Source: a virus. From it: a stretch of 38,775 nt of DNA. The DNA lies in IMG/VR virus record IMGVR_UViG_3300024974_000009, positions 1 through 38,775 of that record. One strand, 5' to 3'. Below the pieces are notes generated by a model that worked only from the letters and a program-made list of their open reading frames with translations, did not search any database and was not told the origin of the DNA. Made by a program: the position numbers and the translations under genes. This document shows, piece after piece, positions 3,941 to 34,827 of the stretch (position 1 is its first letter; every line of letters begins with the position of its first letter).

Positions 3941-5520
3941 TGTTCTTATCTAAAATAGCCGCTTCATCTGGGGTTGATAAGTCACCTTCAGGTGACTTTT
4001 GGTTTAATCCGATCAGTAACCTGGTAAATGGCACGGTGCGTGTCACGCCTGATAGCGCGTTGCAATTGTCAACTGTGTATCGTTGTGTCGATTTAAAAAG
4101 CACCAGCCAAGCCATGCTGCCCTTTGTTTTATACAAAGAGCGTAGTGATGGCAGCAAACAACGTATTACGAATCATCCGTTGTATAAGCTATTTAGCATT
4201 CGGCCTAACCCATTTCAAAATCGCTTTGAATGGCGCCAAATGATGAATGCGCACATTGAATTGCGTGGAAATTGCTATAACCAAATCATTTCAAATGCTC
4301 GTGGTGAAATTACGGCGTTGATGCCGATGCATCCTGATAGCGTGAAAATGGAATTGCTAGACAATGGCAGTCATCGATATCGCTATCGTGATCGTAATGG
4401 CACTGAAATTATACTGAGTCGCGGTGAAGTATGGCATCTGCGTGGCTTGTCTACAGATGGTCTTATGGGTTTAAGCACCATTGCTTTGGCGCGTAGCAGC
4501 TTGTCTGGTGCAATCAGTGCCCAAGATTTTGGCACACGCTTTTGGGCAAATGATGCTAAGCCATCCGGCGGTTGGATTGAAGTGCCTGGTAAGTTTAAAG
4601 ACGATACCGAGCAAAAGAAATTCAGAGAATCATTGCAAAAAGCACAAGGCGGTATCAATCGCGGTAAAACCATGGTGCTAGAGCAGGGCATGAAATTCCA
4701 TGAAGTCACGCTTTCTAATGAAGATGCACAATTTTTAGAAACTAAAAAACATAACGTTACAGAAATCGCACGTTGGTTTGGTGTGCCACCACATAAAGTG
4801 GGTGATTTAGAAAAAGCCAGCTTTTCAAACATCGAGCAGCAAGCCTTGGAGTTCGTGCAAGATTGTCTGCAGCCTATGTGCGTGCGCTTGGAAGCTTCTA
4901 TCGAAGCTGATCTACTTTTTGAAGACGAAGGTATAAAAACCGAGTTTGATTTAACACATTTAATGCGTGGCGACTCAACCGCCCGCGCTACTTATTATCA
5001 TAATGGTATTTTAGACGGTTGGCTAACCAGAAATGAAGCGCGTATTGCTGAAAATTACGACCCAAAAGAGGGTTTAGATAAGCCTTTACAACCATTAAAC
5101 ATGGTTGAAGCAGGTCAAGAACCCGATGCTGACGAAAGTTTAATGTCTGCTGAGCCTGTTAAAAGTGATACAAAAATTCGATTAGAGCGCTCACAAATAC
5201 TTGCAAGTATGGTTGCTGACTCTGTTAAAAAAGATGCAGAAAGTCTAGAAAATCGCTCACAAATGCTTGCAAGTGCAGCTGCTGAACGCATTACACGCAA
5301 AGAACTTGAGTTGATTAAAGCCAATACCAGCACATTGCCTGATATGTACGTGAAGCATGCACAGTTTGTAGCTTCAGTGCTGAATATTGAGTTGAATGTT
5401 GCGCAGCAGTATTGCCAATCGCAGATTACTGACTTTAGTGCTGAGCTCTTTGATGAAGTTATTTTTACCGCTAACACGCAAACAAAACTAGAACGTCTTG
5501 CACTGAAAGGCACGCTATGA
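3940..5520 (+). CDS. Portal protein, HK97 family
   Basis: 526 residues; forms the dodecameric ring at the capsid vertex through which DNA passes. Family features: the N-terminal segment ALQLSTVYRCVDLKSTSQAM, HPLYKLFSIRPNPFQNRFEWR, the central HLRGLSTDGLMGLS, and WFGVPPHKVGDLEKASFSNIEQQ (about residues 266-288), a strong HK97-portal signature. The C-terminal ~120 residues form a helical extension beyond the usual core. It contains an internal duplication: a 21-bp near-repeat at 5188-5208 and 5254-5274, one mismatch, 66 bp apart and in frame. The gene overlaps the protease by 4 bases. Confidence 0.93.
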   Translation: MFLSKIAASSGVDKSPSGDFWFNPISNLVNGTVRVTPDSALQLSTVYRCVDLKSTSQAMLPFVLYKERSDGSKQRITNHPLYKLFSIRPNPFQNRFEWRQMMNAHIELRGNCYNQIISNARGEITALMPMHPDSVKMELLDNGSHRYRYRDRNGTEIILSRGEVWHLRGLSTDGLMGLSTIALARSSLSGAISAQDFGTRFWANDAKPSGGWIEVPGKFKDDTEQKKFRESLQKAQGGINRGKTMVLEQGMKFHEVTLSNEDAQFLETKKHNVTEIARWFGVPPHKVGDLEKASFSNIEQQALEFVQDCLQPMCVRLEASIEADLLFEDEGIKTEFDLTHLMRGDSTARATYYHNGILDGWLTRNEARIAENYDPKEGLDKPLQPLNMVEAGQEPDADESLMSAEPVKSDTKIRLERSQILASMVADSVKKDAESLENRSQMLASAAAERITRKELELIKANTSTLPDMYVKHAQFVASVLNIELNVAQQYCQSQITDFSAELFDEVIFTANTQTKLERLALKGTL

Positions 5521-24555: not shown

Positions 24556-24620
24556 TTTACACTTAGTGTAAACATTCAATTTTAAACAGCTTGCATTTTG
24601 AGTATGAGGGGGCATACACT
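24556..24620 (+). promoter_or_regulatory. Integrase promoter region with inverted repeats (attP candidate)
   Basis: A perfect 8-bp inverted repeat TTTACACT-T-AGTGTAAA lies at 24556-24572. A promoter-like pair follows: TTGCAT (24591-24596), 18-bp spacer, TACACT (24615-24620), with a second inverted repeat GTATG/CATAC (24602-24606 and 24613-24617). attP of serine integrases often lies next to the gene, so this is one of two candidate places; the other is at 26099-26148. Confidence 0.4.
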
Positions 24621-24647
24621 CTCGCTATCCTACGCTCAAAGGTGAAT

Positions 24648-26183
24648 ATGCAAGCTGCTTTATATCTCAGGTCTTCAAAAGACCGTTCAGACGTCAGTAT
24701 CGATGCCCAGCGCCGAGAACTGATTGATCTAGCCAAATCCAAAAACCTAGTCATTATTGAAGAATTTGCCGATGCTGTAGAGTCTGGTAAAGATGATCAA
24801 CGCCCAGGCTTTCAAGCAATGCTATCTCAGTTAAAAAGTCGCGATCGTAAATGGACTTTTTTACTTGCGCTCGATACCTCACGCATCGCGCGTAATCAAT
24901 ATCTGGCACATGCACTTCATTATGAATGCGATAAACGCAACATTAAAATACTTTATGCGAAAATGCCTGAGACTGGCAGCGTTGTTGATGTTGTTATTCG
25001 TGCGGTCATGCAATCCTTCGACCAGCTGCATAGCTTAATGTCTAAAGAAAAAGGCATGGCGGGTATGGCCGAGAACGTTAAGCAAGGTTTTCGTGCAGGT
25101 GGACGTGCACCATTAGGCTACAAACTTCAATCTCATGAAACTGGTGCAATGCGTGATGGTACTGCTGTCACTAAATCAAAACTAGTACCTGGTGATTACT
25201 TTAATGAAGTTAAAGAATTTTTAAAACTCAGAACATTGCTTGTTTCGCGTAGTAAAGCTGCTCAAGATGCTGGGCTTTTATCTGTGGCTCATACTACATT
25301 ATTGGGCATTGAGTGGAATGCGCTCACTTATGCTGGCCATACTGTTTGGAATGTTCAAAATGAACGATTACCAAGTGGCGGCTATAAAGGCAATACAAAG
25401 CGTAAGCCACGTACTGAATGGGTTATTCAGCATGATACGCATCCAGCCTTAATAACGACTGACGAAGCTGAAGGCATTTTAAAGGTGCTTGAGCAAAGTA
25501 CCAGGGGTGATGCTCGCAAAACAAAATCTGAATACTTGCTATCTGGCATCATGGTGAATGAAATGGGCTTGCCATATCATGGATCTGAAGGCATTTATTA
25601 TCGAGCTGGTAAAGGCAGACGTCTGAAGCGTGAGGATTTAGAACCGTTAATTCTTCAGCGTATTATGAGTGATCTACAATCAGACGAATTTATTGCTGAC
25701 TGCGTTAAATCAGCTAGGCAATCAGCACAACCAATTCCTGATGATGAGGTGAAAGCATTAAAAAGTGAAGTAAATAAGATTTCTGGCCAGATTGGAAAAT
25801 TAATGGATATTGCAGCTGAAGCTGATAGTCCGCGGCCATGGCTTGAGAAAATAGAAAAGTTAGAGCTGCAGCGATCTGATGTTGTTGCTAGATTAGATAA
25901 AGCAGATGCAAACTATAGATCAGCACAATTGCTGCTAACTATATCTGAGCGTGACATGAAACAAATGATTGGTGGTTTATCGTCAAACGTTGACTTTGCT
26001 GATGTGCAAAGGGCTAAAGAGTTTTTAACCAGCGTTATTGATAACATTGTGCTCACTGAAACTCCGCGGCTAATCTGTACAATAAACTACAGTATTAGTA
26101 GCGGGGATAGTGTGGCGTCCCCACGGCTACGCGACACTATCCCCGCTATCAAGTTGGCTAGGCTGCTTAAGCTTGCGGCGTGA
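24648..26183 (+). CDS. Large serine recombinase (phage integrase)
   Basis: 511 residues from ATG 24648 (AAAGG upstream). The catalytic domain has YLRSS with Ser10 as probable nucleophile and Arg8, then LDTSRIARN (75-83), EKGMAGMAENVKQGFRAGGR and APLGYKL, typical of the resolvase plus recombinase domains of integrases. A coiled-coil (SEVNKISGQIGKLMDIAAEA, LEKIEKLELQRSDVVARLD) follows. The segment where a zinc ribbon is expected (YLLSGIMVNEMGLPYHGSEG) has no cysteine pair, so the ribbon is degenerate or replaced. It integrates and, with a directionality factor, excises the phage genome. The last 57 bases overlap a minus-strand gene. Confidence 0.9.
   Translation: MQAALYLRSSKDRSDVSIDAQRRELIDLAKSKNLVIIEEFADAVESGKDDQRPGFQAMLSQLKSRDRKWTFLLALDTSRIARNQYLAHALHYECDKRNIKILYAKMPETGSVVDVVIRAVMQSFDQLHSLMSKEKGMAGMAENVKQGFRAGGRAPLGYKLQSHETGAMRDGTAVTKSKLVPGDYFNEVKEFLKLRTLLVSRSKAAQDAGLLSVAHTTLLGIEWNALTYAGHTVWNVQNERLPSGGYKGNTKRKPRTEWVIQHDTHPALITTDEAEGILKVLEQSTRGDARKTKSEYLLSGIMVNEMGLPYHGSEGIYYRAGKGRRLKREDLEPLILQRIMSDLQSDEFIADCVKSARQSAQPIPDDEVKALKSEVNKISGQIGKLMDIAAEADSPRPWLEKIEKLELQRSDVVARLDKADANYRSAQLLLTISERDMKQMIGGLSSNVDFADVQRAKEFLTSVIDNIVLTETPRLICTINYSISSGDSVASPRLRDTIPAIKLARLLKLAA
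26099..26148. repeat. Long inverted repeat at the 3' end of the integrase gene
   Basis: A perfect 15-bp repeat, TAGCGGGGATAGTGT (26099-26113) and its complement (26134-26148), around a 20-base loop with 3 more pairs inside. It lies inside the integrase coding end and inside a small minus-strand gene. It could be a bidirectional terminator between convergent operons, an integrase or attachment site, or the scar of a small insertion. No T run follows on either strand, so a classical terminator is not favoured. Confidence 0.75.
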
Positions 26184-26303
26184 GGTAGGGGCTTGCTCTG
26201 CAAGGCGTTTCTGCTCAAGCATTTCATAAAGCATAGGACCAAGTATTTTGGCTGCTTTTTTGGCGTCTGGCTTATTTGCAGTGATAAATTCTATTTCAAG
26301 CAT
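26127..26303 (-). CDS. Small protein downstream of the DGR reverse transcriptase
   Basis: 58 residues: starts MLEIEFITANKPDAKKAAKI, ends KQPSQLDSGDSVA. The ATG at 26303 overlaps the reverse-transcriptase stop by 8 bases, suggesting translational coupling. The first 40 residues should be helical and charged; the C-terminal tail is encoded by the inverted repeat, so both it and the integrase on the opposite strand read SGDSVA. It is unlike any family I know. Overlap with the integrase end (57 bases, opposite strand) lowers the confidence that the whole frame is used. Confidence 0.45.
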   Translation of the reverse strand: MLEIEFITANKPDAKKAAKILGPMLYEMLEQKRLAEQAPTSRRKLKQPSQLDSGDSVA

Positions 26304-27714
26304 TTTTATGTACCTTTGCTCGATAGGTCTTAGTTATGGCCATGTTTATGCAATGGCCTTTATCTCTAAGTGCATTAGCTATTTTAGTGCGGTCACGATG
26401 GCTTTTTGATGCCTGTCTCAACAATCCAAAATAGCTATTAGCCATTTCGAATGTTTCATCTGCGGGTGACTTTTTAATCTGATTAATAGCTTCATTGACA
26501 GTGCGTTTACGCGTATATCTATACCAAGGCTTAATCACTTGACCAACAAAATCAACTCCACGATCAACCGGCTGCAGAATGGTTTTAGTAGGGTTTAGAT
26601 TGGCATTTAGCTTAGTAGGTAAGAACTCATTAATACGTGCTAAAGCACTGTTTAACCACTGTGGTGACTCATGCAATAGAACAAAGTCATCAACGTAGCG
26701 GATATAGTGCTTAGCTCCTATTTGATGCTTAATGAATTGGTCTAGTGCATTTAGATAGATATTGGCAAAGAACTGAGAGCTTAGATTGCCAATGGGTAAG
26801 CCCAAGTGACTTGGTTGATTAGTTAAGCGTTTGTGTGGTGGTACTAGATCTATTTTTTCAGGATAGCCACGCAATTCAAAGTTAGTACGTGGATCATGAA
26901 ATAGAATGACGTCTGATAACCATAACCACCATGACTCAGTCACTTTAGTAGCGACTTGTTTGCGCAATACATTTTTATCGATAGCAACAAAGAAGTTAGC
27001 TAAATCACACTTTAAGTAAAAACAAGGCTTACTCCAGTTCTCAGTAGCGCTGCGAATCTTTGACTCTAGGCGTTTAGCTGCATAAAGAGTGCCGCGCCCT
27101 GGTATGCATGCGCAACTATCATGAATGAATGATGCATAAAAGCGTGGTGAAATTCGATTGTAAAATAAGTGGTGCACAATGCGATCACGAAAGTCAGCAG
27201 CCCATACTTCACGGGGTTTTGGTCTAGTGATGACAAAGCAAATAGATTTACCTGGTGCATAAGTATTTGCTTTTAATTCATCATAAAGCTTAATTAAGTT
27301 GTGCTCTAGGTTTAATTCAAACGCTAAAGCGCTCGATGTATTACGTTTATTCTTACGGCAATCTAAATAGGCTTGTACCAACTCTTCAAAAGCAAAATCA
27401 GCAACTAGGCGTTCGGTATGATCTGCGGACAGCGCGGGCGCGCAACTCGTTATTCTTGTTGTTGTTGTTCTGGTTGCCGTTGTTGAAATTCTGATACCAG
27501 GCATAACTTGAATTAGAGGCGTGCTGCGTTGTATCTTACTATCTACGTCGCTCTGCCGAAGGACTGATTTAATGTCAGCGCCGATCAGTGGAGTAACTGC
27601 GCTAGACCTATCCTGAAAGCTATCAGTGGTATCTATACTGCGCATAGCGGTAGCCTTTTGAGCTAGCGGTAAAACCAGATTATTTAATCGTACGGTCATA
27701 TTAGCCTTAACCAT
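26296..27714 (-). CDS. DGR reverse transcriptase (template repeat inside its frame)
   Basis: 472 residues if started at ATG 27714, which overlaps the Avd stop as TAATG. RT motifs: CDLANFFVAID (motif A, Asp237), HLGLPIGNLSSQFFANIYLN (303-322, the retron/DGR/group II-type motif), YIRYVDDFVLLH (Asp342, Asp343), then KLNANLNPTKT and FVGQVIKPW. The RT domain begins near FAFEELVQAYLDCRKNKRN (108-126), where most DGR RTs begin; residues 63-98 are the translated template repeat. No ATG occurs between codon 71 and the late C-terminus, so translation must start at or before the repeat. The enzyme copies TR RNA with errors at adenines and transfers the cDNA to VR. With Avd it forms the active complex. 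Confidence 0.95.
   Translation of the reverse strand: MVKANMTVRLNNLVLPLAQKATAMRSIDTTDSFQDRSSAVTPLIGADIKSVLRQSDVDSKIQRSTPLIQVMPGIRISTTATRTTTTRITSCAPALSADHTERLVADFAFEELVQAYLDCRKNKRNTSSALAFELNLEHNLIKLYDELKANTYAPGKSICFVITRPKPREVWAADFRDRIVHHLFYNRISPRFYASFIHDSCACIPGRGTLYAAKRLESKIRSATENWSKPCFYLKCDLANFFVAIDKNVLRKQVATKVTESWWLWLSDVILFHDPRTNFELRGYPEKIDLVPPHKRLTNQPSHLGLPIGNLSSQFFANIYLNALDQFIKHQIGAKHYIRYVDDFVLLHESPQWLNSALARINEFLPTKLNANLNPTKTILQPVDRGVDFVGQVIKPWYRYTRKRTVNEAINQIKKSPADETFEMANSYFGLLRQASKSHRDRTKIANALRDKGHCINMAITKTYRAKVHKNA
27421..27527 (-). repeat. DGR template repeat (TR)
   Basis: 107 bp, aligned without gaps to VR1 (28101-28207) and VR2 (28583-28689). On the minus strand it is rich in AAC/AAT codons: in the target frame it reads NNGNQNNNNKNNE, the typical template with Asn codons at variable positions. 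Substitutions in VR1 (10) and VR2 (15) all lie at template A. Its final 29 bases (27421-27449 on +) are invariant and G/C-rich, as expected for the initiation-of-homing region. Confidence 0.96.
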
Positions 27715-28064
27715 TATGAAACAGACGATGCGGAACGACGCCAGCCATTGGCCTGTTTACCTATGCTGCTTGTGAGTTCAATGACCTTTGCATACTGGCC
27801 AGTTGAAATCAGGCGTTTATCACGTGATAGGCGAATGAGTAACTCTAAAACCTGTTGTTTTTCTACAAGCTTTAAAAGATGAGGCACTTTCTCACGTGAT
27901 ACATTGGCTCTAAATATAAGCGTGACAATATCAACGGATTCGTCACGAAGCTTACTGCCAATGCTCTGTTTGAAATCACGTGGCATGTTCTTAGCCAAAT
28001 CAGTGATCACGTCCAGAAGGTCGTAAGCAATCTTATAAATAGGTAGGTCTGTATGGTTTGCCAT
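27714..28064 (-). CDS. avd: DGR accessory variability determinant (Avd-like, four-helix bundle)
   Basis: 116 residues, all-helical. Pattern: LPIYKIAYDLLDVITDLAKN, MPRDFKQSIGSKLRDESVDI, VTLIFRANVSREKVPHLLKL, VLELLIRLSRDKRLIS, and IGKQANGWRR, matching Avd proteins of DGRs and the related four-helix bundle family. Avd forms a pentameric barrel that binds RT and the template RNA. It lies between the second target and the RT, the classical order target - avd - TR - RT. The ATG at 28064 has no clear ribosome site (T-rich upstream), and its TAA overlaps the RT start (TAATG). Confidence 0.93.
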   Translation of the reverse strand: MANHTDLPIYKIAYDLLDVITDLAKNMPRDFKQSIGSKLRDESVDIVTLIFRANVSREKVPHLLKLVEKQQVLELLIRLSRDKRLISTGQYAKVIELTSSIGKQANGWRRSASSVS

Positions 28065-28086
28065 GTTGAATAAAAAAATAATTAAA

Positions 28087-28536
28087 TTACTGAATAATTA
28101 ATCTGCGGACAGCGCGGGCGCGCAACTCGCCACCCTTGCTGGTGTTGATCTGGTTGCCGTTGTAGAAATTCTGATACCAGGCAGAACTTGAAATAGAGGC
28201 GTGCTGCTCATTTGTCCAATACCATGCCTCTTCAAACTCTTCTTTAAGGTTGGCATATAGCAATGCTTGCTCACGTCTATTTGGTAACTCACCACCTTGT
28301 TCTTTAGCCCATGTGAGTGCATCAGTCCAATTAATCTCTGATTGATGACCATCGAGTAAAATCAAGTGATAGCTAGATTCACCATCTTTACCTAAGATTA
28401 GACCTGCATAACGCTCACCTGCTTTAAGTGATATTTCAGTATGTGGAAATACATACTCAGTAGTTTGTTTTTCAAAGCTTGAAATCAGGCTTAATATTTC
28501 ATCCTGCTTAGCTTTGATGGTTTGTAATGTGATCAT
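28087..28536 (-). CDS. DGR target protein 1 (C-type-lectin-like, carries VR1)
   Basis: 149 residues with an AGGAG ribosome site. An N-terminal helix (QTIKAKQDEILSLISSFEKQ) precedes the lectin-like domain: LKAGERYAGLILGKDGESSY, HLILLDGHQSEINWTDALTW, GGELPNRREQALLYANLKEE, AWYWTNEQHAS, ending GELRARAVRRLIIQ. Residues about 110-146 are encoded by VR1. Compared with the template, eight Asn or Tyr codons are changed, at surface-loop positions of the DGR lectin fold. No signal peptide or membrane segment, so it is cytoplasmic unless carried on the virion. Ligand unknown. Confidence 0.93.
   Translation of the reverse strand: MITLQTIKAKQDEILSLISSFEKQTTEYVFPHTEISLKAGERYAGLILGKDGESSYHLILLDGHQSEINWTDALTWAKEQGGELPNRREQALLYANLKEEFEEAWYWTNEQHASISSSAWYQNFYNGNQINTSKGGELRARAVRRLIIQ
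28101..28207 (-). repeat. DGR variable repeat 1 (VR1)
   Basis: 107 bp, 10 mismatches to TR, all at template A: five to G, two to C and three to T on the minus strand. It encodes the C-terminal end of target 1; the invariant 29-bp end is at 28101-28129. Confidence 0.96.
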
Positions 28537-28571
28537 TGATAGCTCCTAAATTAAAAAAAATAATTAAATGA

Positions 28572-28931
28572 CTAAATAGCTAATCTGCGGACAGCGCGGG
28601 CGCGCAACTCGTTACCCTTGTAGTGGCTGTCCTGGCCGCCGTTGTCGAAACCCTGACACCAGGCACAACTGGAATCAGAGGCGTGCTGCTCATTTGTCCA
28701 ATACCATTCAGGGTTGAATTGGTCTTTTGATTGGTTGAATAGTAGGGCGCTTTCTGCACGGTTAGGTAGGTCGCCACCAAGTGATTTAGCCCACTCCATA
28801 GCATTATCCCAATTGCCATCATCTTTATCGCCTGTAAGTAGAATGATGTGGCTGCCAGTGCCATCTGGGTTGATGATTGCCCCTGCGTAGATTTCGCCAA
28901 TATTTAATTCTGGTTTAGTGATTTGGTTCAT
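28572..28931 (-). CDS. DGR target protein 2 (C-type-lectin-like, carries VR2)
   Basis: 119 residues, AAAGG ribosome site. Same lectin-like core as target 1 without the N-terminal helix: NIGEIYAGAIINPDGTGSHI, ILLTGDKDDGNWDNAMEWAK, GGDLPNRAESALLFNQSKDQ, EWYWTNEQHAS, ending NELRARAVRRLAI. Residues about 81-116 are encoded by VR2. VR2 differs from TR more than VR1 does, and two Tyr codons of the template have become Cys (SSCAWCQ), which could form a disulfide or bind metal. The two targets are clearly paralogues by duplication including their 3' flank. Ligand unknown. Confidence 0.93.
   Translation of the reverse strand: MNQITKPELNIGEIYAGAIINPDGTGSHIILLTGDKDDGNWDNAMEWAKSLGGDLPNRAESALLFNQSKDQFNPEWYWTNEQHASDSSCAWCQGFDNGGQDSHYKGNELRARAVRRLAI
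28583..28689 (-). repeat. DGR variable repeat 2 (VR2)
   Basis: 107 bp, 15 mismatches to TR, all at template A. It shares the invariant 29-bp end (28583-28611) with VR1 and TR. The A/T-rich flank just beyond (28561-28582) resembles that of VR1 (28076-28100) and not that of TR. Confidence 0.96.
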
Positions 28932-34121: not shown

Positions 34122-34463
34122 TTACTTTGCCATCTTGCTGAGTTTCGATACCGAATCAAGGCCCTTAATTGCTTCATCCAGCGCGTAATCAGGAAGCTCC
34201 TGCATTAAGAGGACTGCTTTTTTAATTCTGATATCTTCAACATATAAGCCATCTGTCATTTCGCCATGTCCTACAGCAAGCCATTCTGCACGGACGCCAC
34301 ATACCATAGCAATTTGAACTAAATACTCAGTACCTTTTGTAATACCGCGCTCTAGTAATGAGATATTTTGTTGAGTCATTAAGCCATTGAGTTTCTCTGC
34401 TAATTCTCTTTGATTGAGTTGAGCATGTTCTCTCGCTGCTGCTATTCGTTCACCTAAATTCAT
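34122..34463 (-). CDS. Short cI-like repressor (XRE helix-turn-helix)
   Basis: 113 residues from ATG 34463. The helix-turn-helix is MNLGERIAAAREHAQLNQRE LAEKLNGLMTQQNISLLERG (recognition helix near QQNISLLE), then RAEWLAVGHGEMTD and a helical C-terminus. It lacks the LexA-like S24 peptidase domain, so RecA-dependent self-cleavage is not possible and induction must differ from lambda. It lies divergent to the cro-like gene with operators between. An alternative ATG at 34472 is in frame; a longer open frame further up crosses the cro gene and is not used. Confidence 0.85.
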   Translation of the reverse strand: MNLGERIAAAREHAQLNQRELAEKLNGLMTQQNISLLERGITKGTEYLVQIAMVCGVRAEWLAVGHGEMTDGLYVEDIRIKKAVLLMQELPDYALDEAIKGLDSVSKLSKMAK

Positions 34464-34472
34464 GCTCAACAT

Positions 34473-34499
34473 ATTGTAGTCATTAGGTTTTTTGGTCAA
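34473..34499 (-). promoter_or_regulatory. Repressor promoter (PRM-like)
   Basis: On the minus strand TTTGAC (34495-34500) and TACAAT (34473-34478) are 16 bp apart. Transcription would begin around 34466, 3 bases before ATG 34463, so the repressor message may be leaderless. Confidence 0.45.
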
Positions 34500-34544
34500 A
34501 CAATTATACTTGTTGACATTCTTACAAGTATGCTTGTATATTAT
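34500..34544 (+). promoter_or_regulatory. PR promoter with two repressor operators
   Basis: Operator ACAATTATACTTGT (34500-34513), -35 TTGACA (34513-34518), operator ACAAGTATGCTTGT (34524-34537) in the spacer, -10 TATATT (34537-34542). The spacing (18) and operator positions are the same as in PL. The start codon at 34549 lies only 7 bases after the -10 box. Confidence 0.85.
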
Positions 34545-34548
34545 CGTC

Positions 34549-34827
34549 ATGAGTAAATTATTCCTTGAAAAAATTATTGAGCTTCTAGGTGGTAAGCAGC
34601 AGCGTTTAGCTGAGGTACTGTCCACCGATGAAAAACCAATTAAACAAGCCCATGTATGGAATTGGCTAAATGTTACGGCTGATGGGATTCCAGAACGCCA
34701 TGTCATTAAAGCTTGTAAGGCTGTCAATTTTCAGGTGACGCCGCACGAGTTGCGTTCTGATATTTATCCTCATCCGCATGATGGTCTGCCAGAGTCCATG
34801 CGTAATACCAGCGAGGCGGCTGCGTGA
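34549..34827 (+). CDS. Cro/YdaS-like regulator
   Basis: 92 residues from ATG 34549. SKLFLEKIIELLGGKQQRLA and QAHVWNWLNVTADGIPERHV IKACKAVNFQVTPHELRSDI YPHP match the YdaS/Cro family of phage helix-turn-helix proteins. It is the first gene under PR and should antagonise the cI-like repressor in the lytic path. A transcript from the predicted -10 box would start at or near the A of the ATG, so it may be leaderless; the upstream ATG frame (34492) crosses the promoter. Confidence 0.88.
   Translation: MSKLFLEKIIELLGGKQQRLAEVLSTDEKPIKQAHVWNWLNVTADGIPERHVIKACKAVNFQVTPHELRSDIYPHPHDGLPESMRNTSEAAA

Follow-up and report, generated by a model that had tools for sequence, protein, structure and literature searches.

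A proposed RT-15 RNA leader and octamer-flanked variable repeats in a two-target diversity-generating retroelement of a phage

For diversity-generating retroelements (DGRs), the choice of the start of complementary DNA (cDNA) synthesis and of the copy to be rewritten is known in detail only for Bordetella phage BPP-1. The viral DNA IMGVR_UViG_3300024974_000009, analysed herewith over its whole length of 38,775 nt (positions 1 to 38,775, hereafter the window), carries on its minus strand a complete DGR of the known kind with two targets, arranged in the order target 2, target 1, avd, template repeat (TR) and reverse transcriptase (RT), and it raises the question of which signals make these two choices. 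Our answer, to which we give a probability of roughly 0.7, is that a functional-looking DGR rewrites the C-termini of two small lectin-fold proteins with the aid of an RT-15 RNA leader, a helix between the linker of this leader and TR, and variable repeats (VRs) marked by octamers. About a hundred related phages and prophages share its departures from the textbook DGR in the template RNA and in the landing sites.

Adenine-only substitutions in a two-target element

The repeats and genes of the element are as follows.

27421-27527, minus strand: TR, 107 nt, 35 A
28101-28207, minus strand: VR1, 107 nt, 10 differences from TR, A-only
28583-28689, minus strand: VR2, 107 nt, 15 differences from TR, A-only
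26296-27714, minus strand: RT, 472 amino acids (aa) as open frame; phrog_1423, E 8.7e-117; Pfam RVT_1
27714-28064, minus strand: avd, 116 aa; Pfam PF22296 (bAvd), E 6.7e-16; phrog_3206, E 3e-32
28572-28931, minus strand: target gene 2, 119 aa; Lcl_C/DUF1566-like C-type-lectin fold, VR2 at the C-terminus
28087-28536, minus strand: target gene 1, 149 aa; same C-terminal domain as target 2

In ungapped 107-nt alignments, all mismatches between TR and VR1 (10/10) and between TR and VR2 (15/15) fall on template A, while the probability that randomly placed mismatches all hit the 35 A is 5e-6 for VR1 and 4e-9 for VR2. Between VR1 and VR2 there are 19 differences. The initial annotation had described, from a hand alignment of three ungapped repeats, exactly these 10 and 15 substitutions at template A and two VRs differing from TR and from each other; the alignment was reproduced without change. 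Its further claim of a complete two-target DGR, in this gene order on the minus strand, was borne out from the open reading frames (ORFs), in which RT, Avd and both lectin-fold targets are intact, the first two being confirmed by phrog_1423 and bAvd, with no frameshift in either. The Avd score is over the cutoff of PF22296 and under that of NF033474 (E 8e-15). RT carries the motifs YVDD and IGNLSSQ, which are of DGR type (YxDD box, and SQ replacing SP in motif 4), and both motifs are invariant among 22 relatives. The substitutions in VR2 are strongly biased toward G (12/15), those in VR1 less so (5/10). The second VR of two related loci (L004 and L006, near 4728-4822) carries a small insertion relative to TR that shifts the frame at the target C-terminus, an apparent homing error.

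A comparison of VRs among related genomes had been proposed in the initial annotation, and in the two pairs compared the changes indeed focus on template A (26/27 and 36/37). The deposits of Shewanella phage vB_Sb_QDWS and 'Hujiaoplasma phage zrk29-1' represent one 47,902-nt genome with 31 differences: two VRs account for 14 and 13 of them, the rest of the genome for 4. Those on template A number 14/14 in the first VR and 12/13 in the second, the sole non-A site being 44987, at which zrk29-1 has the TR base and QDWS does not. Because these differences concentrate in VRs on template A, the DGR family does diversify. The metagenome contigs L005 and L028, with identical TR, differ at 37 positions in two VRs, 36 of them at template A, and show only 4 differences outside VRs over the first 8 kb. 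By inference from such relatives, the DGR of the window phage itself would also be active. An exact-word search with the 28-nt end of TR identified no near twin of the window on which activity could be tested directly, and found contigs similar to QDWS and to Burkholderia phage Magia, not all of which were compared individually. In passing, of the two deposits, L034/L042 (OK094664.1) and L035/L043 (OP650936.1), zrk29-1 is assigned a Tenericutes host despite a genome identical to that of QDWS apart from the 31 bases, and this host label looks wrong or reflects contamination.

The RT-15 RNA and the 3' junction of TR

Upstream of TR lies a structured RNA, which was absent from the initial annotation, as were the position of TR within the RT open frame and the octamers that flank the VRs.

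27527-27730, minus strand: RT-15 structured RNA (Rfam RF03018), cmscan 141.3 bits against a gathering score of 82, E 1.4e-34
27676-27683, minus strand: AUAAUCUG, strand of the RT-15 linker with no pairing in the local fold; it is proposed to pair with the TR 3' end
27418-27425, minus strand: TR 3' junction CAGAUCAU, proposed partner of 27676-27683

The window sequence spans model positions 1-192 and is thus a full-length member; its last base is the first base of TR, and it overlaps the 3' end of avd. Among related viral contigs and phages with enough flank, RT-15 was found directly upstream of RT in all full-length loci, with TR starting a few bases from its end, while the distant RTs of L027 and L029 have no RT-15 upstream. 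A set of 80 genome loci (L077-L156) was held out of profile building, and in all of the 74 that have TR and VRs (74/74) the RT-15-like match to a sequence profile ends within 6 nt of TR. The consensus fold of 28 RT-15 sequences contains 50 pairs, 28 of them with two-sided compensatory changes, and consists of a first hairpin, an unpaired linker and a multibranch domain. Rfam lists RF03018 as gene/small RNA; we place it here as the 5' leader of the DGR template RNA. No paper that links RT-15 to DGRs was found in the library searched, which lacked the original RT-15 description and several papers on DGR RNA, and the link may already be in print.

The linker holds a nearly invariant AAUCUGG, and the reverse complement of AAUCUG and the TR 3' junction both start with CAG. 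In the window the two strands can form 7 of 8 pairs, with one A-C mismatch. In 90 of 97 loci the base that precedes AAUCUG (hereafter N7) matches base seven of the TR junction; all four nucleotides occur among these matches, and the agreement expected by permutation is about 35%. On the RT tree, the linker has 15 changes at N7 and TR has 12, and the joint state changes only 15 times. When independent evolution was simulated from the same root, 90 matches were never reached in 5000 runs at any of four rates, and joint changes numbered 37 on average with a minimum of 19, as against the 15 observed; the agreement at N7 thus exceeds phylogenetic expectation. After comparison of all 196 linker-by-TR position pairs, it turned out that the top four, (7,7), (4,4), (5,5) and (8,8), all belong to one register.

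Octamers, reading frame and target genes

Directly 3' of each VR, the window carries a tandem pair of AT-rich octamers.

28562-28577, minus strand: tandem octamers ATTTAGTC ATTTAATT, directly 3' of VR2
28080-28095, minus strand: tandem octamers ATTCAGTA ATTTAATT, directly 3' of VR1

When both strands of the window were scanned, the pair was found only twice, after VR1 and VR2. Within the 40 nt after the VRs of the family there is a tandem repeat of period 8, with the consensus ATTYARYH. For the 52 VR flanks of the discovery set, identity at lag 8 reaches 0.48, compared with 0.30 for dinucleotide shuffles (z 16) and 0.225 for TR flanks; in the held-out set of 158 VR flanks it is 0.44, with z 28.6 against simple shuffles and relatedness uncorrected. 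The strict octamer occurs in 80% of held-out VR flanks, as against 2.7% of TR flanks and 3.5% of shuffles. Since the period is 8 and the repeat overlaps the stop codon, we argue that the octamers are not of coding origin. In BPP-1-like DGRs the rule is a GC-rich hairpin of 7-10 bp with a GRNA loop, placed 4-34 bp after VR (PMC3240598), and a GC-rich stem with a four-base GRNA loop was recovered after VR in all five control phage DGRs (BPP-1, VHML, ACA1, VP58.5 and YPCBV-1), one of the stems scoring 6 bp. Neither VR1 nor VR2 of the window is followed by a GC-rich hairpin with a GRNA loop. VR1 flanks of the Pseudomonas branch (such as L110:6273, L131:6272 and L142:6273) carry, about 30 nt after VR, a CCGGCCG-CTTG hairpin in addition to the octamers, which may be a terminator or a second recipient signal.

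The avd stop codon overlaps the ATG of the long RT frame (TAATGG), and in the window this frame spans RT-15 and TR without a stop and reaches the RT core, where homology to the RTs of the family begins near 27384. The distance from the TR end to the RT core or match is 37 nt in the window and 151-233 nt in the five controls, the structured spacer of BPP-1-like DGRs measuring about 150 nt. In the upstream region of 31 loci, stops number 16 in the RT frame as against 169 and 194 in the other two frames, and the TR part is open in the RT frame in 83 of 100 loci, compared with 34 and 49 for the other frames; 53 of the 100 lack an in-frame ATG, GTG or TTG between TR and the RT core. Judged from these frames, translation of RT through TR would be usual and not universal. 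In the closest relative (L002:5673-6000), a small inserted gene, about 90 aa long, separates TR from RT, and RT starts at an ATG of its own. The overlap of TR with the RT frame is therefore common but not required, and TR as a translated RT domain in all members was ruled out, as the frame through TR is open in 83/100 only and L002 restarts. The deposited RT start of QDWS (L042:3156-4187) sits 69 nt inside the conserved RT core, so that the true start must lie within or upstream of TR, unless the start codon is unusual.

Both targets match Pfam Lcl_C with E of about 1e-5 to 1e-6, under the gathering score, and a weak match to the Lcl C-terminal domain was detected in 15 of 17 members of the target alignment; a sequence search of PDB with the targets gave this weak Lcl match as the sole credible one. 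The AlphaFold2 model of target 2 has a pLDDT (predicted local distance difference test) of 95.4, and its best PDB match by Foldseek is 8q4e, the C-terminal domain of Legionella pneumophila Lcl (E 7.6e-05, TM 0.70), followed by C-type lectins. The initial assignment of the targets as C-type lectins thus gained support from this model, and the VRs lie at the C-termini of these proteins of predicted C-type-lectin fold. The identity between Lcl and target 2 is 18%, and Lcl is a collagen-like adhesin, whereas the phage target is a bare domain of 119 aa. The targets lie on the strand opposite to the tail genes, next to a ParB-like gene and a DUF3310-like gene, and the homologous targets of Magia sit among RecT-like, nuclease and ATPase genes; because of this setting in both genomes, they are probably expressed outside the late operon.

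The phage looks temperate, as was initially supposed, with a recombinase of the serine-integrase family and repressor-like genes (34122-34827) in the window, besides genes for tail sheath, portal and terminase.

24591-26183, plus strand: serine-integrase family recombinase (phrog_95), adjoining the DGR

This recombinase gene is convergent to RT, and in Magia, QDWS and LPPA56 a tyrosine or other site-specific integrase gene is located downstream of RT. A conserved accessory gene directly downstream of RT was considered and ruled out, since the 58-aa ORF at 26127-26303 has no relatives at that place.

Proposed mechanism, alternatives and significance

On our reading, the whole element, from target 2 and target 1 through avd, the RT-15 leader and TR to RT, is probably transcribed as one RNA. 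RT-15 would fold into a hairpin followed by a closed multibranch domain, and its single-stranded linker N-AAUCUG would pair across TR with the TR 3' junction CAGAU-n-N; this helix would carry the TR 3' end to the RT-15 domain and do the work of the BPP-1 3' spacer. The RT-Avd complex would bind the RT-15 domain and cDNA would start there; RT would copy TR, erring opposite adenines, and the cDNA would replace a VR through the homologous GC-rich 3' end that the two have in common. The recipient would be marked by the AT-rich tandem octamers 3' of VR, in place of the GC-rich GRNA hairpin. The binding of RT-Avd, the priming at the helix and the role of the octamers are steps that we infer by analogy with BPP-1 and also from position.

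Several observations weigh against this proposal. Taken by itself, the RT-15 copy of the window folds with an energy no better than that of shuffles (z -0.24); as folding energy is uninformative, it is covariation that supports the RT-15 structure. In about half of the loci, the linker A faces a mismatch at TR position 6. A test with independent pairs fell short of significance for too few supported pairs, though every pair with a difference pointed in one direction. Relatedness is left uncorrected in the z-scores for permutation and for octamers, only the N7 test having been run on the tree. Finally, a GC hairpin is present in 33 of 158 VR flanks, mostly of Pseudomonas, with a GRNA loop in 2 of 158.

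The gene order, Avd, SQ-type RT and A-only mutagenesis are all BPP-1-like, and the element could be taken as a standard DGR of the BPP-1 type throughout, primed from a 3' spacer in or before RT and marked by a hairpin after VR, with RT-15 and the octamers incidental. The controls have, however, the GRNA hairpin together with a long gap between TR and RT, while the window has no such hairpin and a short gap; the sequence of L002 is unrelated from about 30 nt after TR, yet its VRs are A-only, and RT-15 covaries with the TR 3' end. We consider this reading quite unlikely. The same covariation speaks against RT-15 as an independent regulatory RNA that controls the expression of RT or avd from outside the template RNA: such a role would suit an RNA that overlaps both the stop codon of avd and the region where the RT open frame starts, but even in divergent loci RT-15 ends where TR begins, and the TR 3' junction, about 260 nt downstream of the linker, covaries with it, which makes a separate regulator very improbable.

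The covarying linker might otherwise serve as a target guide, pairing with the DNA of the VR 3' junction instead of, or besides, TR RNA. The VR junctions of the window carry CAGATT, a better match to the linker than TR, and in L016 and L040 the linker and the VRs have changed in concert; yet N7 agreement is 47% (z 4.8) for VR against 92% (z 11.3) for TR, in a comparison confounded by the homology that VR and TR share, and we regard this role as doubtful but worth keeping in mind. It is unlikely, too, that the DGR is real and now inactive in the window phage, with its VRs as relics of past diversification: the window is a single genome, but its RT, Avd and TR, its two VRs and every cis signal are intact, free of frameshifts and of non-A substitutions, and VRs turn over in relatives.

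The reading of a functional-looking DGR with a 5' leader, a long-range helix and octamers is best set against the known systems. With the BPP-1 DGR (mtd-avd-TR-brt) the element shares the order target-avd-TR-RT, Avd, A-only mutagenesis, a C-terminal VR in a C-type-lectin fold and a GC-rich VR 3' end. In BPP-1, a structured spacer 3' of TR recruits and primes (PMC12875486), and a GC hairpin with a GRNA loop follows VR (PMC3240598); the window has instead a structured RNA 5' of TR, octamers after the VRs and small targets outside the tail module. The layout had been called classical initially, which stands for the gene order; the window lacks the hairpin after VR, the long spacer between TR and RT and a tail-module site for its targets, and has other conserved signals. 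The DGRs of Magia and QDWS belong to the same family, with RT 64% identical, RT-15, octamer-like flanks and small lectin-fold targets outside the tail genes, and differ in having three VRs and a 91-nt TR, as compared with two VRs, a 107-nt TR and a serine recombinase in the window; the Magia deposit already annotates Avd and lectin-fold DGR targets. With structural group 3 of the DiGReF survey (PMC3521204), a recognised class, the window shares a TR that overlaps the RT ORF, here in the 5' part of its open frame; the part of the survey consulted reports no RNA structure, linker pairing or octamers. The DGR itself is thus of a known kind, and it is the RNA and the recipient signals that set this variant apart as new.

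We lean, by a modest degree, toward the view that these elements are a DGR lineage of their own, widely distributed among prophages of Beta- and Gammaproteobacteria, whose template RNA is arranged in reverse relative to BPP-1: a 5' RT-15 leader sets the cDNA start by a long-range helix across the template, and octamers, not a hairpin, license the recipient. Such a lineage would keep the outcome of a DGR and alter its signals, and would thereby allow what is essential in one system to be separated from what is accidental. It would give a role to the Rfam RNA family RT-15, with the N7 base pair, the AAUCUG linker and the octamers as testable elements, and its compact recipient and template signals may be of practical use for targeted protein diversification.

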